Source of the DNA: a virus
Reading direction: 5' to 3' (one strand)
Length of the DNA stretch: 43,348 nucleotides
Virus record (IMG/VR): IMGVR_UViG_3300010396_000063
Location: 1-43,348 of that record
This document shows, piece after piece, positions 1,359 through 43,348 of the stretch (the stretch's first letter is position 1; each line of letters starts with the position of its first letter). Under the pieces are notes generated by a model, which was not told the origin of the DNA, did not search any database, and worked only from the letters and a program-made list of their open reading frames with translations. Both the position numbers and the translations under genes were made by a program.

Positions 1359-1673
1359 CTATAAAAATGTTCTTGCAACGTGCGCGAGGGCTTTTTGCTT
1401 AACGTTTTCCTCCAAGTTTGAAATGGTTTTATCTCGATTAATAATGCCTTGTGCAATGATATCTAAAATTTGTTGGTCGATTGCTTCTTGCATGACTTCT
1501 TTTTTAAGTTTATCAAACGGCCAAAAGTAATAAGAAATTAAAGCTTCAGAAACACCCATTTGTTTACTTAAAAGAATCCTATTTATTTTGTCGTACCCAA
1601 TTTTTTTAGATAACGAAATCGCCGCTTTGATTATTTCTTTACGACGAGCGGCTGGGTTTTTTCTGATTCGCAT
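1359..1673 (-). CDS. Small TetR-like helix-turn-helix protein
   Basis: A 104-residue protein whose first 60 residues resemble the TetR DNA-binding domain: RRKEIIKAAISL helix, then an HTH with KQMGVSEALISYYF (recognition helix; TetR proteins usually have GVS..LYYHF). The usual TetR ligand-binding domain of about 130 residues is absent; only about 45 residues follow. It could be a phage regulator of the replication operons. The start at 1673 has GGAGGT seven bases upstream and overlaps the previous gene by 43 bases, so it is cotranscribed with VRR-NUC and the helicase. The DNA target is unknown. Confidence 0.65.
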   Translation of the reverse strand: MRIRKNPAARRKEIIKAAISLSKKIGYDKINRILLSKQMGVSEALISYYFWPFDKLKKEVMQEAIDQQILDIIAQGIINRDKTISNLEENVKQKALAHVARTFL

Positions 1674-1852
1674 TTTGTTACCTCCAAATAAGCTACGATT
1701 TTTTCAACACATAAGGGGCAACTAGACTTAACGTTATTGAAATTAATCCCGTTAATCGCGGCTAACTCTGCATCTTTGAAATAAAAGTCGTTTGTTAGTT
1801 CTTCTCCGCACCACGCTTTGTTATCGTCACACGTAAACTTAATATGGTTCAT
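1631..1852 (-). CDS. Small Cys-containing protein, possible zinc binder
   Basis: A 73-residue protein of unknown function. It has two cysteine pairs, CDDNKAWC near the N terminus and CPLC near residue 50, which could bind one zinc ion. I chose ATG 1852 because GGAGAAGGGA lies just upstream and its ATGA overlaps the stop of the VRR-NUC gene, a translational coupling arrangement. An in-frame upstream start exists but has no such signal. A further C lies in the C-terminal VTKCES. Confidence 0.6.
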   Translation of the reverse strand: MNHIKFTCDDNKAWCGEELTNDFYFKDAELAAINGINFNNVKSSCPLCVEKIVAYLEVTKCESEKTQPLVVKK

Positions 1853-2220
1853 ATCGTCCCTTCTCCTGTTGCAAAACAAGCGTCGCCACCCAACGAATTA
1901 ATTAAATTGATCCAGGCAAGTTGGGCTTTTTCTCTTTCAGTTCCGGCATATTTCCAATTTGATTTTTTAATTTCTCGACTTAAAAACTGTCCTATTGTTT
2001 TGCCGACCATATCCTGAGTGATTTTGATAGGGCGTATACCTATCAAATCAGAAGACTTGATTATTTTGTTAATAGCCGCGGAATCGTTAGCAAGACCGTA
2101 ACGAACGAAATTTCCTTCTTTTGTGTAGAGGGCGCCTACGTTGTTGCGCCACAATCTGCACCCTTTATGAGATGCTTCAAGGCGTATGATTGATTGAATT
2201 TTACTTTCTAAAACATCCAT
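1849..2220 (-). CDS. VRR-NUC domain nuclease
   Basis: A 123-residue protein that is almost entirely a VRR-NUC domain, a PD-(D/E)xK-fold nuclease found as stand-alone enzymes in many phages and fused in FAN1. Visible motifs are the N-terminal E (VLESKIQ), RLWRNNVGA, VRYGLANDS, SSDLIGI with the metal-binding Asp, and SREIKK with the E-x-K pair. The family cuts branched or flap DNA, so a role in resolving replication or packaging intermediates is likely. The start at 2220 is preceded by GGAGGAG. It follows the SF2 helicase by 28 bases and overlaps the next gene by four. Confidence 0.85.
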   Translation of the reverse strand: MDVLESKIQSIIRLEASHKGCRLWRNNVGALYTKEGNFVRYGLANDSAAINKIIKSSDLIGIRPIKITQDMVGKTIGQFLSREIKKSNWKYAGTEREKAQLAWINLINSLGGDACFATGEGTI

Positions 2221-2248
2221 TTGCTCTCCTCCGTAAAGTAAAAATACG

Positions 2249-3874
2249 TTAACGTATATTGACGAGTTCGTCAATTATCTCAATAATTTTTGTAGAGAGT
2301 TCGTTTGCATTTTTTACATTAAGAGTTTGTGCGGTCATTACATCAACACCAAAAGTGAAATAAAACGTTTTGCAAATTTCACTGTCCGTTTTTCCCTCTG
2401 TTTTTTCATACCCAGCCCAACGTGCAATTTGTTCTCTCAATTCGCGTTGCGCGTCTTGTCGCAGTCTATGGTTTTTTGCAATAGCGAGTTGCGCGGGCAC
2501 GGATAAATAGCGTGAAATTAAAGGTGCAGCATCAATTTTATTTATCTCACCTCTGAGTTTTGCTAACACTTTTTCGTCTAATTCAAATAAGTCACCATCA
2601 ACATACTCGGGTGCGGATCGATCAGTAATTACAACTTGTGTTCCGCAATTTGGGCATTGTTTATAGATGCGTTTAAAAACAGCTAAACATTCAGGATTAA
2701 TACAAGTACGCAGAGGTATTTCGCCAATCTTACGAGATTTTTTATCTTTACGATCTAAAGACCAAACGCGTTTTGAATCGGGCAACCCGTGCATCTTAAC
2801 ATTGCTTACATGATCAATGATGATAGCGTGCGATTTGCCTTGCATGGGTCGAAGTGCGCGGCCGAATTGCTGACTATACAAACAATAGCTTCGAGTTGGC
2901 CGTGCCATCGAAACCACTTCGATCGCCGGTACGTCAACGCCCTCCCCTAATAAATCCACATTGACGATTTGTAAGATCTCGCGGTTTCTAAATTTACGCA
3001 TAATCGAAGCGCGTAAAAGATCCGGTGTTTTACTTGAAATAACTTCTGCAGTTACGTCTTGTTTTCTAAATTCTTCTGCGATTTCGGTTGCAGCTTTAAT
3101 GTCAACAGCAAAAGTCACGCCTAGTTTACCGTCTGCAATACGTTTGTAATGTGAAACAACATCGCCGGTAATATGCGATTTATGCACTGCATGTCTTAAC
3201 TTTGGAGGGCTATAATCACCTGATGCACTAATCGGTACCTCTGTTAAATCTAAATCGGAAGGCGGCGCGAAGATACGATAGTCAGTTAAGAATCCCAAAT
3301 TGATTAATTCACGCATTGGGCACCCTAAAACCATTTCATCTATGATGCCATCCGCATGACGTCCTAAACCTCTACCGTCTGCACGAACAGGTGTTGCCGT
3401 GGGATAAAATCCGCGAGCGTTCGGAAATAATGCCGCGGCTTTTCCCCACTTATTGTCTCGTAACACATGGTGTGCTTCGTCTTGTATAACTAAATTGATT
3501 TTTTTAAATAACGGTTCGTTATTCATTTTAATAAGCGTATCGACGCCAGCAACAACGCACTTACGACTTAGCGGGTCATAATAGGAGCGCCCGACCTCTG
3601 TTAAATGCAATGCGCATATTTCTCGAATCGCAGGTTTTTGCGCAATAATATTATGTGAAATTCCATGGCGTGCTAGTGTTAAAGAAATTTGACTTACGAG
3701 CTCAACACGGTGCGCAATTGCAATCGCCATGCCGTCGTTGTCTTTGATTATTTTTGCAAGCAGTACAGTTTTTCCGCCACCTGTTGCGAGTTGCGCTAAA
3801 ACATTCCTGGCACCATTGTTCCAAGCGCTATAGATTTTCGTTAAAACATCTTCTTGATAGGGTCTTAAAATCAT
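2249..3874 (-). CDS. DEAH-type SF2 DNA helicase with C-terminal zinc finger
   Basis: A 541-residue superfamily 2 helicase of the type III restriction/Rad25-like group common in phage replication modules. Q-motif-like RPYQ at residues 4-7, Walker A ATGGGKT at about 30-36, DEAH box QDEAHH at about 131-136, motif III region YPTATPVRADG, and motif VI QQFGRALRP are all present. After the helicase domains comes a four-cysteine ribbon, CINPEC and CPNC, near residues 390-410. It probably unwinds or remodels DNA during phage replication or recombination. It is the first gene of the leftward operon, directly downstream of the minus promoter at 3908-3935. Confidence 0.9.
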   Translation of the reverse strand: MILRPYQEDVLTKIYSAWNNGARNVLAQLATGGGKTVLLAKIIKDNDGMAIAIAHRVELVSQISLTLARHGISHNIIAQKPAIREICALHLTEVGRSYYDPLSRKCVVAGVDTLIKMNNEPLFKKINLVIQDEAHHVLRDNKWGKAAALFPNARGFYPTATPVRADGRGLGRHADGIIDEMVLGCPMRELINLGFLTDYRIFAPPSDLDLTEVPISASGDYSPPKLRHAVHKSHITGDVVSHYKRIADGKLGVTFAVDIKAATEIAEEFRKQDVTAEVISSKTPDLLRASIMRKFRNREILQIVNVDLLGEGVDVPAIEVVSMARPTRSYCLYSQQFGRALRPMQGKSHAIIIDHVSNVKMHGLPDSKRVWSLDRKDKKSRKIGEIPLRTCINPECLAVFKRIYKQCPNCGTQVVITDRSAPEYVDGDLFELDEKVLAKLRGEINKIDAAPLISRYLSVPAQLAIAKNHRLRQDAQRELREQIARWAGYEKTEGKTDSEICKTFYFTFGVDVMTAQTLNVKNANELSTKIIEIIDELVNIR

Positions 3875-16634: not shown

Positions 16635-17354
16635 TTACTCTCCTAAACCTAAAATAAATTCTGATATAAAATTTCCATTCTGGAAATTCATGTTGTCATT
16701 GATCATCGGTACTTCATTAAATCCAAAAATAGAATCCGATTTAATGTAGTATTTTATTTTAACGCCCGCCGGTCTTGGTAAAATATCATAGGTAGATAAG
16801 ATATACAGCAATTGTTGGGATACATTAAAATTAAAAACATAAGTGATAGACATATCAAGACCATCTAACGCATATACCTCACCTAGGTCTTTGAACAAAT
16901 ATGCTAAAAAAGTATTTGTTTGTGTCAATGAACCTGCAGAAACTAATTGATAATATCGAAGTCTTAAAACCAATCGTTGTTCGTCAATTGTTAATTGTGA
17001 TTGAGAGCCACTAGTCGTAAAGCTCCCGTTTTCAAAATTACGCCCACCTTGAATCGCGCTAGGGTCAGGAGCATTAAAAACATTTGTTCCCCAAATGGGT
17101 TTTCCAATTTTGTCTGGATCAACTCCGATTGACAATGGAAGGTTTAATATAATCGCCCATACATGCAAACCAAATTCATCAGCGGTTATTAAGTTAAATA
17201 CATCGTTAAACCAATCTTCCCAAAAAGCGGAATATTGAAAATCGTAAAAAATCTGCTTTGAAAAAAGTAAAGACTGTAATTTCAGAGCTTGATCATATTG
17301 CCAAAGCAATGTTTGTAAAATGTCAACCTTATAATCAAACTCTTGTATCTTCAT
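16635..17354 (-). CDS. DUF2612 baseplate/fibre adaptor protein
   Basis: A 239-residue DUF2612-type protein, found between baseplate J and the fibre in compact myoviruses. The opening (VDILQTLLWQYDQALKLQSLL, WEDWFNDVFNL) and internal FGLHVWAIILNLP match the family. It probably links fibre to baseplate wedge. Its last 30 residues include FGFNEVPMINDNMNF, closely repeated at the C terminus of the neck-region protein at 25748. Confidence 0.85.
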   Translation of the reverse strand: MKIQEFDYKVDILQTLLWQYDQALKLQSLLFSKQIFYDFQYSAFWEDWFNDVFNLITADEFGLHVWAIILNLPLSIGVDPDKIGKPIWGTNVFNAPDPSAIQGGRNFENGSFTTSGSQSQLTIDEQRLVLRLRYYQLVSAGSLTQTNTFLAYLFKDLGEVYALDGLDMSITYVFNFNVSQQLLYILSTYDILPRPAGVKIKYYIKSDSIFGFNEVPMINDNMNFQNGNFISEFILGLGE

Positions 17355-18547
17355 GGTACGACATCCACTGTTATGCTATCCGCAACGATATTTGCCAGTT
17401 GATAAATGAACATAGGCAACTCATCCGTCGTCCAGCTCACTGTAGAAGCAAGTGAAACTTCCATTTTTTTAACATAAAGCCCGGGTACTTCTATATTAAC
17501 TGCTCCTGCTAATTCAAAAGGAGAAACTGACGCACCAACAACAAACCCCTGTTCGCCTGGCAATAACCCATTTGCATAATCCAAAATGGCCTGCTTAACT
17601 GCGCTAACCGGGTCTTGAATTGAAGTATTTGCCCTCACGGTGGCTTTAGCCAAAACCGGGACTATTGTTGGACGATCGAATTTCACATCATAGCTTTGGC
17701 CACTAATTGGTACGGTTAAAGTTACGGTGGTGCTTCCATTATATGCGCAACCCATGCTTTTTTTATTTAAAAGCGAAGTCGCAACGTCATTGTCCGTACC
17801 ACCATCAACGATTACATAAATAGAATGCGGAATTAATGTTTTACCATCGATAACAATTGGGCTGTCAGTATAATTCTCACGAAACACTAAACTTTTAACG
17901 CCAGGCACTAAATATAAATCCGAGATAATAGCTTCAGGTAAAGCCGTCCCTTGTGCAGCTAATGTCACACGGCGCAATTCTCTTGCTTGTTCGTCGGTTT
18001 GTTCTTCACTTCCTACTATTCCCTGCGCTAGGTTATTTACCATTTCCCAACCCAAAATGTCGCTTATTATTTGCGTGATGAAATTTGCAGGCACGCTAAT
18101 CGCACCAGGTACAACCGCTGAAAAAACAACAGAGGCAGTTCCAGACCCATCCAGAGTCACGGTACTATTTGACTGAAAAACAATGCCGGTATTTGACGAT
18201 GCTTGCGCCCCTGCTGGTATAACCGTCCCTGCTACTCCGTTTAATACGCATGTCGCATAGGAAGGCTGAGCCGCAATACGTTGTGAACCCGTTAATGCAA
18301 GTATTGCATCTAGGAAAACTCCGCCAGCTAAATTAGGATTAATTTGGTTAGCTAGTGCGGCATTGTTTCGTAAAACATCACTGCGAGCTAAAGTTTCAGC
18401 GGCAATTAAAATCCCCTGAGGTGTACTTGGGTCAACATTTAAATCCTGCCCAAATGCCGCCTTATATTCGTTTTCAACAAGAGTTTTTATTTCCCCTGTG
18501 TCGGGAACAATAACCCCCGTGCTATTGATATAGATATAATCAGCCAT
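17351..18547 (-). CDS. Baseplate J-like wedge protein
   Basis: A 398-residue baseplate J/gp6-like protein. Visible family features are ADPSTPQG-like NVDPSTPQGILIAA near residue 45, GGVFLDAILALTGSQR, repeats of VVPGAISVPA, and GIVGSEEQTDEQARELRR near 185. It would form the wedge ring of the baseplate. It overlaps gp25 at its start by eight bases and DUF2612 at its end by four. Confidence 0.92.
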   Translation of the reverse strand: MADYIYINSTGVIVPDTGEIKTLVENEYKAAFGQDLNVDPSTPQGILIAAETLARSDVLRNNAALANQINPNLAGGVFLDAILALTGSQRIAAQPSYATCVLNGVAGTVIPAGAQASSNTGIVFQSNSTVTLDGSGTASVVFSAVVPGAISVPANFITQIISDILGWEMVNNLAQGIVGSEEQTDEQARELRRVTLAAQGTALPEAIISDLYLVPGVKSLVFRENYTDSPIVIDGKTLIPHSIYVIVDGGTDNDVATSLLNKKSMGCAYNGSTTVTLTVPISGQSYDVKFDRPTIVPVLAKATVRANTSIQDPVSAVKQAILDYANGLLPGEQGFVVGASVSPFELAGAVNIEVPGLYVKKMEVSLASTVSWTTDELPMFIYQLANIVADSITVDVVP

Positions 18548-23679: not shown

Positions 23680-25191
23680 TTAGATTAATTCATGAGTGCC
23701 GTTAATTTTACGGACGTCATCATCTTTACTATAAATCAAAGTATACTCCGCGTGATATTCAACTCCGTCATTTACTTCAACTGGAACAATTACACAGTCC
23801 AGCCAATATCCGACATTTTGGACTTGATACCAAGCATTAGGATCATTAGTTTGCTGAGTAATAAATTGCTTTTGATCTTCAGTAAGGATTTTATCTACAC
23901 TAATAGTGCCATTATTAATTGCCAAATTAACTACGTTTTGGAGAGTACTTAAAATCTGGCTTCGACCTTGACCATTTGCAGAGATTTTAGCTAACTGAGT
24001 AATTAAATTTAATAGCGCAGCGCTGGCAACACTCTTTAACCATTGCTCATTCGCGTAGGTATTCATGTCCTTAGCATCAGTCGCGCCGCCCATCAATACT
24101 CCGCGCTGATAAAAAGCTAATTGCTGACCTGCCGTTTGAGTTAAACCGATATAGTTCACTCTTAATGGATCTAAAGTATTCGCCGCTAAATCTGTACTAA
24201 CTGAAGGACTCAACAAAGGGAATTTTTGAAACATATAATTCTGAACGGAATTAACTCTGAGATAATTCGTTGCAGCAAGTATCATCATAGGCGCCATCTC
24301 GGGGTATTCACCTGCGACACTTGAAATTGTTAAACCTGTCCCGCCATATCCAATTAATGCCGCAGACCATGATGTGGCATCCGCATACGCAGTTGGCACC
24401 ATATATTGGTATTTAACATTTTGCCCCGCGTTCCATTCTGCTGCCTCAGCGTGTTGATCAATCGTTAGTGTAGGTATAAATAAAAACGATCCAAAATTAT
24501 CTGAGCGAGAAGCAGATTGATCTAACGTATCAGTAATAGCTTCAACTGCAGACCCATTAGAAATAACTAAATTATCCCCCCCAGACCAACCAAGATGAGT
24601 GCCTAGAGGCGTACCCGTTACGCCTTCAACATAAGCAATCGTTGCATCGCCTGTTGAACCGCCCACGAAATTAAAACTTGCTCGTGTGGCATCATAAGTA
24701 ACAGTAGCAGAAGTCCACATGGTGCCACTTGCAGTTCTAATCGCCGTTTGAACGATGGTCGCAACATCCGCTAAACTTGTTGCCCCAGAAAAATCTAATG
24801 CGGTAAAAGTATTAGTTGTTCCTAAAATGTTTAAACCGAAAGATCCATTCGTTATTCCTTGCCATGCTGTAAGACTTGAAACTACCGAAGAGTTATCCCC
24901 CAAAATTCTTGGAGACACTGCCGTTTCAACCCAGCGAGAATAAGAAATGGATTGAGGAGAAGTTATATTTTTACTTACCCACCCAAAATAAAAGCTAGCT
25001 CTTTTATATTCTTCTGAAGTCGTACCAAAATAAGCGCCGACAGCCGCAGCACTTGTAAATTCTTTGTCGGTATCTACCGGCAGATAGATGTTAGAAGTGA
25101 ATAAGCGAGCTATTAATTTTCTTTGACCGACACTTCCGCCTGCCCCGACACCCGATGTGATATTCACATATCGATTACTATTTATAGTCAT
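23680..25191 (-). CDS. Tail sheath protein (DUF3383)
   Basis: A 503-residue contractile sheath protein of the DUF3383 type: N-terminal RYVNITSGVGAGG, then R-LIARLFTSN, YFGWVSKNITSPQSISYSRW, the C-terminal GVEYHAEYTLIYSKDDDVRKI with the conserved handshake strand. Presence of a sheath makes this a myovirus-type particle. AGAGGGA precedes the start. Confidence 0.92.
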   Translation of the reverse strand: MTINSNRYVNITSGVGAGGSVGQRKLIARLFTSNIYLPVDTDKEFTSAAAVGAYFGTTSEEYKRASFYFGWVSKNITSPQSISYSRWVETAVSPRILGDNSSVVSSLTAWQGITNGSFGLNILGTTNTFTALDFSGATSLADVATIVQTAIRTASGTMWTSATVTYDATRASFNFVGGSTGDATIAYVEGVTGTPLGTHLGWSGGDNLVISNGSAVEAITDTLDQSASRSDNFGSFLFIPTLTIDQHAEAAEWNAGQNVKYQYMVPTAYADATSWSAALIGYGGTGLTISSVAGEYPEMAPMMILAATNYLRVNSVQNYMFQKFPLLSPSVSTDLAANTLDPLRVNYIGLTQTAGQQLAFYQRGVLMGGATDAKDMNTYANEQWLKSVASAALLNLITQLAKISANGQGRSQILSTLQNVVNLAINNGTISVDKILTEDQKQFITQQTNDPNAWYQVQNVGYWLDCVIVPVEVNDGVEYHAEYTLIYSKDDDVRKINGTHELI

Positions 25192-39315: not shown

Positions 39316-39767
39316 GCTTTAAATTCTCCATTCATAAAACTTTGATAAATCCTTGACGCCTCAACCGGATCATGTGTATTAATGATAATTTTTGATTTCA
39401 CATTATCATTTTTTATAGTAGCATCTTCATCATTGACCGGCGCTGAATTTTCAGACCATCGATGTTGAGTTTTGAGATAAAAAATAATAGCACTAACGTT
39501 ACCTTTTTTACACTGCTCAAACAGCTTACCAACTACAAAACTTTTTGTCTTTGCTTTACCGCGTTTGATAGCCTCATACATTTCAGGGTGTTTATTCATG
39601 CGTTTATACCACGTATCTCTCGATGTTCCGAAGTAGTGATACATTTCTTCTTGCGTCAATCCGCGTCCAGCTAGCATTTCAATTTCTTTAATGACTTCGG
39701 GCGTAACTTCCCAAATTCTTTTTTGTCCACGTTTTAAAAGTTGGTCAGGCGCTTTTTTCTTCGTCAT
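39312..39767 (-). CDS. terS: Terminase small subunit
   Basis: A 151-residue protein with an N-terminal HTH (LAGRGLTQEEMYHYFGTSRD then TWYKRMNKHPEMYEA), a central helix with AKTKSFVVGKLFEQCKKGN and FYLKTQHRWSE, typical of terminase small subunits. It recognises phage DNA for packaging. It overlaps the methyltransferase remnant by 23 bases. Confidence 0.88.
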   Translation of the reverse strand: MTKKKAPDQLLKRGQKRIWEVTPEVIKEIEMLAGRGLTQEEMYHYFGTSRDTWYKRMNKHPEMYEAIKRGKAKTKSFVVGKLFEQCKKGNVSAIIFYLKTQHRWSENSAPVNDEDATIKNDNVKSKIIINTHDPVEASRIYQSFMNGEFKA

Positions 39768-39984
39768 ATCTCACCGCTTGTTGTCCGGTCATTTTTTCAC
39801 ACCGTTTGATTATAACATCGCAATATCTTTCGTCTAATTCCATCATTAAACATTTGCGATTTAATTTTTCACATGCCATCAAAGTCGTTCCGCTGCCGCC
39901 GAATGGATCATAAACATAATCATTAGGTCTCGAATTATTTTCAATTGGACGCATCATACAAGTCGATGATTGCCCAGAACCCAT
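39745..39984 (-). pseudogene. DNA methyltransferase C-terminal remnant
   Basis: A 79-residue frame with CMMRPIENNSRPND, then VYDPFGGSGTTLMACEKLNR (AdoMet-binding FxGxG motif) and CDVIIKRCEKMTG. This is the C-terminal end of a ParB-methyltransferase fusion of the kind found next to terS. The catalytic DPPY block and target recognition region are missing, and its frame differs from the ParB half by one. It most likely is a deletion remnant and not active. Confidence 0.75.
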
Positions 39985-40460
39985 ACGTCTCCTTTTTTCG
40001 TGATAGGTTCTTGTGGGATGTCGAGTCCACCTTCTTCTTCATCATCTACCGAGTACAAGGGCTCTGGATTTATAATTTCGAAAATTTCATCGTCACTAAA
40101 ACCTGTTAACGTAGGATCGAATCCTTGTTCTTGTAACGTCACAAATTCGTCGCGTAAAAGCTCTAAATCCCACCCTGTTTTAAGTGCGAGTTTATTGTCT
40201 GCAATTGAGTAGCCTATTTGGAGGGCGTTTTCTAAATGATCATAGCGTATGGCAGGAATGGTTGTTTCCTCCAAGCGTCGCATAGCTTCAATACGACAAT
40301 GCCCTGCAACGACGACATTATCTTTCGTAATGATGATTGGATTAATAAAACCATACGTTTTAATTGATTGCATGACTTCTTCGATTTGTTCGTCTGAATG
40401 CGTCCTTGTATTTTTTTCATACTCTTTAATGTCACACAGGGGCAGGTTTAAAAATTGCAT
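39954..40460 (-). CDS. ParB-like N-terminal domain protein (methyltransferase fusion, truncated)
   Basis: A 168-residue protein with a ParB/sulfiredoxin-like domain: TRTHSDEQIEEVMQSIKTYG, PIIITKDNVVVAGHCRIEAM, RRLEETTIPAI. The C terminus ends in GDVWVLGNHRLV, exactly where a methyltransferase domain begins in ParB-methylase fusions (NHRL-x-CGD). The stop follows at once, so the enzyme part is lost. It may keep a DNA-binding or NTPase role. The start at 40460 has GAGAGGATC upstream. It is the first gene of the late operon. Confidence 0.75.
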   Translation of the reverse strand: MQFLNLPLCDIKEYEKNTRTHSDEQIEEVMQSIKTYGFINPIIITKDNVVVAGHCRIEAMRRLEETTIPAIRYDHLENALQIGYSIADNKLALKTGWDLELLRDEFVTLQEQGFDPTLTGFSDDEIFEIINPEPLYSVDDEEEGGLDIPQEPITKKGDVWVLGNHRLV

Positions 40461-40536
40461 TTTCGATCCTCTCAATAAGTTTTAAACCCTATCATCTTAT
40501 TGTCGTCTACACAATACAATGCTCAATTAGTGTCCA

Positions 40537-40832
40537 TACCCCGAAGGTAAGGGTTCGGGGTAAGTTCGGGGTATTATAACCTATTGATTCCATACATATT
40601 ACCCCGATACCCCGATATACCCCTTAAAAGTAATTAATAATAAATATATATTTGTGATATATAGATATGTATATATGCATATAGGTATGTATATATACAT
40701 ATATGGGTGGGAGTAGGAGTGGGAGGAAGAGAGTAGGAAAATCCGGGGTATTTCGGGGTATCGGGGTAACTTTAATAAAATCAACAACTTGCAATACCCC
40801 GACCTTACCCCGAAGGTGAGGTGTCGGGGTAA
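40537..40832. repeat. Mirrored TCGGGGTA box array, candidate replication origin
   Basis: Ten exact and two variant copies of TCGGGGTA (either strand) lie in two arms, 40537-40625 and 40743-40831. Reading inward from each edge, the order and spacings are the same by mirror symmetry (gaps 10, 3, 26, 0, 2 bases). Arms are separated by 117 bases: AT-rich, palindromic DNA (about 40626-40703) and a purine-rich strand (about 40704-40744). Iterons next to an AT-rich unwinding region are the usual shape of an origin. It also could be a packaging, partition or regulatory site. The 375-base gap 40476-40850 has no convincing gene. Confidence 0.65.
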
Positions 40833-40850: not shown

Positions 40851-41096
40851 ATGAATGCAAAAGATAAGCATATATGCATAAAAAAAAGAGCAGAATGTAA
40901 AAAATTAGGTCTGAATAAATACTACACAGGGGAACCTTGTATCAGGGGGCATATTGCTGAACGATATGTGAGCACCGGGTTATGTGTTCAGTGCATAAAA
41001 GAACCAAACGATCATGTAATAGTGCGAGTGCCTAAACGCCATGTGAGTTTTATTAAATCAATTTTAGCGGCATTAGAGATTGACGATAGTGTTTGA
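40851..41096 (+). CDS. Small zinc-binding protein, HNH-like N-terminal motif
   Basis: An 81-residue protein with KYYTGEPCIRGHIAERYVST followed by GLCVQC, the zinc-finger block often fused to phage HNH or Vsr-like endonucleases; here it stands alone without a nuclease domain. AGGAGGT lies seven bases before ATG. It lies at the right edge of the origin candidate, so it could bind there; this is only a context guess. Next to it begins the strong promoter at 41093. Confidence 0.65.
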   Translation: MNAKDKHICIKKRAECKKLGLNKYYTGEPCIRGHIAERYVSTGLCVQCIKEPNDHVIVRVPKRHVSFIKSILAALEIDDSV

Positions 41097-41121
41097 CACG
41101 CTATATCGTCTTCGCTATAAT
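41093..41121 (+). promoter_or_regulatory. Consensus sigma70-type promoter for receiver operon
   Basis: TTGACA (41093-41098), 17-base spacer, TATAAT (41116-41121): both boxes match the sigma70 consensus exactly, so it needs no phage factor. The spacer holds TATCGTCTTCGCTA (41104-41117), a degenerate copy of the motif shared with promoters 9666 and 42360. It precedes the receiver gene by 28 bases. Confidence 0.8.
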
Positions 41122-41148
41122 ACTCCTTTAGCTAAGGAGCAATACTGT

Positions 41149-41508
41149 ATGGAAATTTTACTAGTAGAAGACAGCGACCTTCCGCGTTATGTTATAAAAA
41201 CCAACTTAGAAATGTTGGGGCATCATGTAACGGCTTTAAAAAATGGCCAAGACTGCCTTAATTATTACAAACGTGGATATGATGTTATTTTGTTAGACAT
41301 TGGCCTTCCTGACCTATCAGGCTACGAGGTAGCCCGATATATTAGATTGCATGAAGAAAAACGAAACATTATCATCGCTATTAGTAATGACGGGGATAAG
41401 ATAAGAGAACAATGCGTGCGCGCAGGTATTAACGCCGCATATAAAAAACCCTTAGATTTTGAAACGCTCAATAGGATATTAAAATGCAAAATGAGAAAAA
41501 TTGCATAA
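41149..41508 (+). CDS. Stand-alone CheY-like response regulator receiver
   Basis: A 119-residue receiver domain with no output domain. Key residues: acidic pair E7 and D8 (VEDSD), phosphoacceptor D50 (ILLDIGLPDLSGYE), Ser79 (AISND) for the conserved Thr/Ser, and Lys100-Pro101 (YKKP). It should be phosphorylatable by a histidine kinase, but no kinase is in the window, so it would tap or titrate a host kinase. I chose ATG 41149, right after AAGGAGC and the promoter, over a longer upstream frame. First gene of a three-gene operon with HTH and exported protein. Confidence 0.85.
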   Translation: MEILLVEDSDLPRYVIKTNLEMLGHHVTALKNGQDCLNYYKRGYDVILLDIGLPDLSGYEVARYIRLHEEKRNIIIAISNDGDKIREQCVRAGINAAYKKPLDFETLNRILKCKMRKIA

Positions 41509-42366: not shown

Positions 42367-43348
42367 TTATTTGCTTTGGGATTCAGTATAAGCAGCGGCA
42401 ATAGCAGAAGGGTTAGTGATATTTAAATCCGGATGATCTTTACGTATATAAATTCGCGATTTAATACCGTCAGGCATAACAATGTTGTTAACCCGCCCGT
42501 CTTTTAAATGGGGGTGCGGTATGTAATTTATATTATCTAAAATTTCTTTACCTTTTTGAAAAGATATCCTGTTTCTCATATTTATTTCGGTCAGCATGTC
42601 GTTAAAATATTTAGATGAGATATACCCGTTTCTGAAGCCAATTTTACCTTCTTCTATGCGGTCTAAAGTTTCTTGTTCTAATCGACTCTTGCCTTGTGAA
42701 ATTGCTTTATGTGTCGAAGAAGTAATAGGCGCGCGTTGACAATCAATGGCGGGATTAAACTCTTTTGGTATTTGATAATTTGATAAAAAGTGATTAACAA
42801 TAGCAAAACCGTTTTCTTTTGTAAGCCATGTATATAACCGATGAAAATATTCATTGGTCATACCAAATTGTTTTAAGTCACCAACAGATTGTTGTTTCGT
42901 AAAAAAAGGAGCAAAACGTCTATCGTTGTTGGTTTTAATAATTGCATCTTGATGGTTTGAATTTAGAATAAAGTTTCCACAGACATCACGAATAATTTTA
43001 TGAGAAAATTTAGCGTGTATTTCTAGTCGATTACTAGTGATCATCGGTTTGATTTTTTCTGCAACTTCACCCCGTTTACCGTCAATAGAAAAAACATCCT
43101 CGACGCCGTAGAATTCGCGACCGAACATCCAATCGTTGTATTTATCACAAATTTGACTTGCTTCAGGAAAATAGGTGTAACGTTCTCCGATACAAAAAGC
43201 CATGACGCGCGTAAATAACGTCTTGCCATTACCTTCAACGCCTTGTATTACTGGACACCATTGAAACTTAACACCACGGTGTTGAATCATCGCGCTTAAA
43301 TAGCTAAGCATAATAGCGGCGTCTTTTTCTTCCGGCATCGTTAAATCC
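42367..43348 (-). CDS. Primase-helicase, C-terminal SF3/D5-like helicase half (cut by window edge)
   Basis: The 3' part of the primase-helicase: 326 codons open at base 43348. Walker A is GVEGNGKT (residues 33-40 from the internal Met at 43338), with FYGVEDV as Walker B-like, sensor GNFILNSNHQD and NDRRFAPF, and the family tail GRVNNIVMPDG. This fits superfamily 3/D5-type phage helicases. The N-terminal prim-pol half is at 1-1338. It is not a separate gene: no start or ribosome binding site precedes MPEEKDA, and the frame continues upstream. Confidence 0.9.
   Translation of the reverse strand, partial: DLTMPEEKDAAIMLSYLSAMIQHRGVKFQWCPVIQGVEGNGKTLFTRVMAFCIGERYTYFPEASQICDKYNDWMFGREFYGVEDVFSIDGKRGEVAEKIKPMITSNRLEIHAKFSHKIIRDVCGNFILNSNHQDAIIKTNNDRRFAPFFTKQQSVGDLKQFGMTNEYFHRLYTWLTKENGFAIVNHFLSNYQIPKEFNPAIDCQRAPITSSTHKAISQGKSRLEQETLDRIEEGKIGFRNGYISSKYFNDMLTEINMRNRISFQKGKEILDNINYIPHPHLKDGRVNNIVMPDGIKSRIYIRKDHPDLNITNPSAIAAAYTESQSK

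Follow-up and report, generated by a model that had tools for sequence, protein, structure and literature searches.

The box array at positions 40537–40831 of the window (the whole 43,348-base stretch of virus DNA analysed here, an IMG/VR record) is most probably the replication origin of its phage, onto which the phage's own primase-polymerase (PrimPol) would be loaded. We infer this function, and the identity of the protein reading the boxes, from the mirror arrangement of the array, the AT-rich core between its arms, the IHF-consensus sites within them, the conservation of the array together with a PrimPol replication module, and the replacement of the box where the PrimPol C-terminal domain differs. 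Comparison with relatives gives good support to the best guess of the preliminary description, a replication origin with unusual dyad layout: boxes, mirror order and spacing are all retained in them, and the array comes after the replication module.

Twelve boxes make up the array, ten of them exact copies of TCGGGGTA (starting at 40537, 40600, 40608, 40795 and 40806 in the minus orientation, and at 40555, 40566, 40753, 40761 and 40824 in the plus orientation) and two of them variants, TACCCCTT at 40618 (minus, two mismatches) and CCGGGGTA at 40743 (plus, one mismatch). They form two arms of 89 bases with six boxes each. Read from left to right, the left arm (40537–40625) runs minus, plus, plus and, past a 26-base gap, minus, minus and variant minus, with an inner tandem pair at 40600–40615; the right arm (40743–40831) mirrors it, running variant plus, plus, plus, a 26-base gap, minus, minus and plus, with its inner tandem pair at 40753–40768. 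Gaps of 10, 3, 26, 0 and 2 bases are identical in both arms, all twelve boxes pair in mirror, and the outermost box pairs of the two arms are direct repeats of each other. A rescan of the window letters recovered every box start and orientation given in the preliminary description, and its gap series, mirror order and 117-base core were likewise borne out.

Exact copies of TCGGGGTA are expected from composition 0.69 times in the whole window, where a single copy (at 24299) lies outside the array, and 0.005 times in 295 bases, so the ten copies found there are not due to chance (Poisson P for at least ten exact boxes in the array, ~1e-30). Comparing the arms with each other, 46 of 48 box positions are identical against 19 of 41 spacer positions; the spacing has therefore been kept while the spacer sequence drifted, and, with spacing conserved beyond sequence, a recent inverted duplication alone does not account for the mirror spacing. 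Rfam and tRNA scans returned no match. Multiple short repeats in a defined array, as seen here, are characteristic of iteron-type origins.

AT-rich DNA adjacent to the boxes, also expected of an iteron-type origin, is present as well. The 117-bp core (40626–40742), a predicted unwinding element, is 74% AT, and the 60-bp stretch starting at 40624 is 88% AT, a level reached by 0.13% of window stretches. All core elements listed previously are present, namely the palindrome TATATGCATATA (40672–40683), the 16-base palindrome TATGTATATATACATA (40686–40701) and then a purine-rich tract (about 40705–40740). The exception to the AT-rich core is L236/G013, in which an otherwise canonical array (L236, 4426–4520) has a GC-rich core with alternating CG/TG (GTGTGCGCGCGCATGCGCACGC).

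Each window arm also contains a perfect IHF-consensus site (WATCAANNNNTTR) in the 26-base gap, with outer and inner boxes on either side: AATCAATAGGTTA at 40577–40589 on the minus strand in the left arm, and AATCAACAACTTG at 40779–40791 on the plus strand in the right arm. Across 18 representative arrays, the outer thirds hold eight perfect sites, against 0.14 expected from shuffles, and 18 sites with one mismatch allowed, against 4.2 expected, with the perfect sites occurring in only 6 of the 18 arrays. The array of Vibrio phage 1.075.O keeps perfect IHF sites in both arms despite its different boxes. Several arrays, not including that of the window, have TACTACTA/TAGTAGTA trinucleotide runs resembling DnaA-trio elements that flank the inner boxes (L246, 38160–38290; L180, 11875–11945; L070, 2165–2240; L247, 13080–13120).

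Phage sequences gave no match to the window array in a direct blastn search, and relatives were reached only through box-pattern scans and PrimPol homology. Pattern scans of viral contigs (IMG/VR) revealed further arrays of the same plan in many contigs; a scan of genome contigs gave four matches, none with a clear full array. The array is also found in phages identified independently through PrimPol homology rather than the box, including Klebsiella phage MEW1, Acinetobacter phages Scuro and LAPP1, Pectobacterium phage PEAT2 and Edwardsiella phage PVN06; in Shewanella phage SppYZU01 it is degenerate. Using the MEW1 array as a query produced 70 further phage records, mostly Klebsiella jedunaviruses. 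The recurring plan consists of outer boxes, a gap usually of 36–39 bases, an inner tandem pair with a gap of ~0 and a core of about 70–120 bases, followed by the mirror image. The 26-base gap of the window array is about one helical turn shorter than usual. A search of related phages for box order and spacing, named as a check in the preliminary description, left its reading standing. No array was detected in G029 and RHph_Y5A, which encode related PrimPols.

Genomes of the jedunavirus type carry two arrays about 12–14 kb apart, one near terS and the other before the neck gene, an arrangement that calls for an extra explanation; the two may be separate origins, or an origin with a helper site. 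One genome, G028, was considered as a satellite stealing the array; we rejected this idea on finding that it shares its source metagenome with G027 and that the two resemble a single phage severed at both of its arrays. This apparently split phage (L258/L259 in G027, 34,750 bp; L285 in G028, 13,618 bp) suggests that arrays can split assemblies.

The array travels with replication genes. All searched records of 27 kb or more that carry an array encode PrimPol, against none of 26 long control records holding only a lone chance match to the pattern. Among 20 compared genomes, the genes common to array phages are those for PrimPol, VRR nuclease, DEAD helicase, a Cas4-like protein and an SSB-like protein; TerS, MCP, sheath, ParB, HTH17 and the response regulator are not generally shared. 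As expected for linkage to an initiator gene, all 22 genomes examined have the array 3' of PrimPol, at distances of 8–5,703 bp (sign test on the 3' position, 5e-7, which is too optimistic because the genomes share ancestry). The window phage itself is myovirus-like (it has a tail sheath) and encodes PolA, a DEAD helicase and a VRR-type nuclease. Its array lies 1.5 kb downstream of the PrimPol gene, and its VRR-nuclease-like and DEAD/ResIII helicase genes (1849–3874, minus strand) belong to the conserved replication module of array phages.

One minus-strand PrimPol gene is cut by both contig ends, leaving an N-terminal part at 1–1338 (AEP primase-polymerase and NrS-1 HBD domain) and a C-terminal part at 42367–43347 (SF3/DUF5906 helicase and a winged-helix-like domain, residues about 212–302 of that part). 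The AEP domain is related to that of NrS-1 (phmmer matches to 6k9a, 6a9w and 7rr3, E about 1e-19), and the helix bundle domain matches Pfam NrS1-1_pol-like_HBD above the cut-off (52.8 bits, E 4e-14). The SF3 helicase matches DUF5906 (48 bits), with an invariant Walker A motif, GxxGNGKT, and a predicted hexameric form; compared with NrS-1 structures 6k9c/6k9e, the C-terminal part gives a sequence E of 5e-4, and the best fold matches of its model reach E 9e-14. The NrS-1 PrimPol is known from biochemistry to synthesise DNA de novo from a specific template motif (PMC8718748).

At the level of sequence comparison, the box and the PrimPol C-terminal domain co-vary across phages. Among phages with TCGGGGTA boxes, the domain is 57.6% identical against 47.9% for the helicase, and two members with divergent helicases keep the domain (63.9% against 35.6% in G003; 61.5% against 36.8% in PVN06), as joint movement of domain and box would predict. 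A consensus stretch of the domain, YDWHPALKDGRVNN, is kept in the TCGGGGTA phages and missing in the PrimPols of G029, RHph_Y5A, G009, Chi, NrS-1 and the others compared. The window's own domain calls for caution, being the most divergent of the TCGGGGTA group (39.9%). Models of the domain have the order helix-strand-helix-helix-strand-wing-strand, and their VIA-align matches are mostly to winged-helix domains, weak at Z of 5 or less; Foldseek with the isolated domain gave no significant match. With a medium-confidence model and such matches the domain appears winged-helix-like, and it is a better candidate for reading the boxes than the binders first proposed.

Those were a ParB-like protein (39954–40475), for which none of the 20 compared genomes has a relative, and the zinc-type neighbour orf40851, with relatives in only five of them. 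The HTH protein at 41484 (HTH17) and the response regulator, both lacking relatives in the same 20 genomes, were also rejected as binders. A TetR-like HTH protein (1359–1673, minus strand), which adjoins the PrimPol gene and is conserved in array phages, is a second candidate, as an alternative or accessory binder. In four loci (L248, 38062–38562; L247, 21427–21927; L280, 18193–18702; L259, 6829–7260), the PrimPol-adjacent TetR-like proteins have two tandem HTH domains instead of one. The ParB-like gene is part of a broken ParB/DNA-methylase fusion (39745–40475, minus strand), in which the ParB part stops after GNHRLV, the methylase C-terminus is a separate ORF and about 160 residues of phrog_498 are missing between the two. 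The response regulator, encoded in the cluster beside the array (41080–41508, plus strand), is a stand-alone receiver domain (Pfam E 9e-18).

The most telling case of a box replaced where the PrimPol C-terminal domain differs is G009, which resembles the window phage in TerL (53%), portal (47%) and MCP (47%) and has a diverged PrimPol. It lacks TCGGGGTA arrays, and 8 bp from its PrimPol gene there is an array with the same arrangement, built of GTCCCAA boxes. Arrays of other boxes also lie 3' of more distant PrimPols, with twelve AAGTGTA boxes in NrS-1 (AB746912), the first one 13 bases past the PrimPol gene, seven TTGTAAC boxes in Chi, and weaker arrays of further boxes in phiAxp-2 and Vibrio phage 1.075.O, four exact boxes each. 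The generic array detector gives about two matches per Mb in control phage DNA at a score of at least 14.5, and the Chi and G009 arrays therefore rest on their position beside PrimPol as well as on their score. Unrelated inverted/direct 7-mer arrays picked up by this detector, GACCGTC (L124, from 1141) and TGACACA (L060, from 2701), are possible origins of other phages.

The NrS-1 PrimPol starts DNA synthesis in vitro from the template motif 5'-TTTGGTTA-3', and sites of this motif "may" mark where replication of the NrS-1 genome starts (PMC8718748). Exactly one copy is present in the 37,159-base NrS-1 genome, inside the array, which spans 17061–17378; the chance of a single copy falling in the 318-base array is about 0.9%, one copy genome-wide being unremarkable. 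In the open-access literature, we found no paper naming an NrS-1 origin or any Jedunavirus replication origin. The annotated NrS-1 ORF NRS1_29 (L298, 17055–17456) covers the box array and translates to box repeats, and is probably not a gene.

Many arrays lie between divergent operons near terS, a position that also fits packaging or regulation. A packaging (cos/pac) site read by the small terminase would resemble lambda cosB, where IHF acts between terminase sites; IHF sites do occur between the box groups, and the array is directly upstream of terminase or late genes in the window, MEW1, LAPP1, PEAT2 and PVN06. Terminases are, however, not co-conserved with the array: several TerL types accompany the same TCGGGGTA box, tblastn with the window TerS found no relative in any of the other 20 genomes, and G009 shares the TerL of the window phage but not its box. 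The array adjoins PrimPol in NrS-1, Chi, phiAxp-2 and G009, its mirror symmetry is unexpected for directional packaging, and phage IME346 carries the array, yet its genome is reported to lack fixed termini (PMC9007800), all of which makes a packaging site improbable. We also consider it unlikely that the segment is an operator/promoter region, in which a phage regulator such as the TetR-like protein would act on the boxes to control divergent early and late operons. The frequent location between divergent genes, the conservation of the TetR-like protein beside PrimPol and two promoters annotated near or in the array of KpV52 would suit such a region, but promoter-like matches in the window array are at chance level (one found against 2.3 expected), layout and PrimPol linkage persist while neighbouring genes differ, a different PrimPol C-terminal domain comes with a different box, and the putative recognition helix of the TetR-like protein varies between phages with one box.

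Another possibility, which we regard as doubtful but serious, is that the segment is the origin and the boxes are read by a different protein of the module (the TetR-like HTH protein) or a host factor, which would recruit PrimPol. A small HTH-type gene directly upstream of PrimPol in many genomes is consistent with this, but the PrimPol C-terminal domain and the box correspond more closely than do the box and the TetR-like proteins, which are only 21–38% identical to that of the window. Moreover, SaPI Rep and SCCmec Cch2 use C-terminal domains of their own to bind origin repeats, and two hexamers apparently take part in the case of SaPI Rep (PMC7581432). Mirror arms with IHF sites recall attP, and a ParB-domain gene is adjacent, so an integration attachment site, a partition site or a mobile inverted-repeat element might be imagined; we judge these highly improbable, as none of the profiled window proteins was recognised as an integrase, MEW1 has arrays and no annotated integrase, the broken ParB gene is not conserved, and each genome has one or two arrays at positions that recur, no transposase having been seen.

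For an origin read by PrimPol itself, the following mechanism can be envisaged. The NrS-1-type PrimPol-SF3 helicase would bind the boxes through its C-terminal winged-helix-like domain, probably with one hexamer per six-box arm, and thus two hexamers on twelve boxes. The match of six boxes to six subunits is attractive but speculative, and in other phages fewer boxes are recognisable. Bending of each arm by IHF, within the gap that separates its outer from its inner boxes, would bring these together, the facing hexamers would melt the AT-rich core, and the primase-polymerase would start synthesis de novo inside the origin, giving rise to two forks. Cumulative GC skew has its minimum at the array in the window, SppYZU01 and G022, and elsewhere in most other genomes; GC skew was not used as support because third-position skew has no clean strand switch.

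Among known systems, NrS-1, the phage from which this kind of enzyme first became known, shares the PrimPol plus SF3 helicase architecture, a module with helicase, endonuclease, RecB and SSB, and a box array 13 bp 3' of the PrimPol gene that holds the genome's only TTTGGTTA, but it differs in its box, AAGTGTA(ACC) instead of TCGGGGTA, its less symmetric layout and its C-terminal domain, which is about 19% identical. The SaPI/SCCmec origins (SaPI Rep, PriRep1, Cch2) similarly have short iterons 3' of the gene for a self-loading initiator-helicase that binds through its C-terminal domain, and the window PrimPol model matches PriRep1 with dsDNA (7pds). They belong to island elements, however, and not to virulent phage genomes, their box is different, and a window-type array may be several kb from the gene; IHF sites and a two-arm layout of tandem pairs were not found described for them in the open-access literature. 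In phage P4, the primase-helicase initiator alpha acts with two cis sites, ori and crr, that have the same iterons, which would resemble the two arrays of jedunavirus-type genomes; P4 itself is a satellite phage. SV40 and papillomavirus dyad origins, where SF3 helicase hexamers assemble as a pair on inverted sites beside AT-rich DNA, differ in belonging to eukaryotic viruses, in their N-terminal origin-binding domain, in having fewer boxes and in having no known part for IHF.

Taken more broadly, the comparisons suggest, with roughly even chances of being right, that phages with NrS-1-type PrimPols use a class of origin undescribed in the open-access literature, a mirror double array in which each IHF-bent arm would load one PrimPol-helicase hexamer via a swappable winged-helix domain. 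One protein would then recognise the origin, unwind it and start synthesis without a separate primer; box and domain would have been swapped as a unit among phages with widely differing hosts, with two such sites in some genomes.

NrS-1-type PrimPols start DNA synthesis without a primer, and where they do so in their genomes is only a guess in the open-access literature. The array offers a precise candidate start site for the window phage, for NrS-1 and for about 70 records of cultured phages, mostly Klebsiella jedunaviruses, which are testable in ordinary laboratories. The natural swaps of box and domain provide a set for reading how an SF3 initiator chooses its DNA, and the system may amount to a portable, primer-independent replicon.
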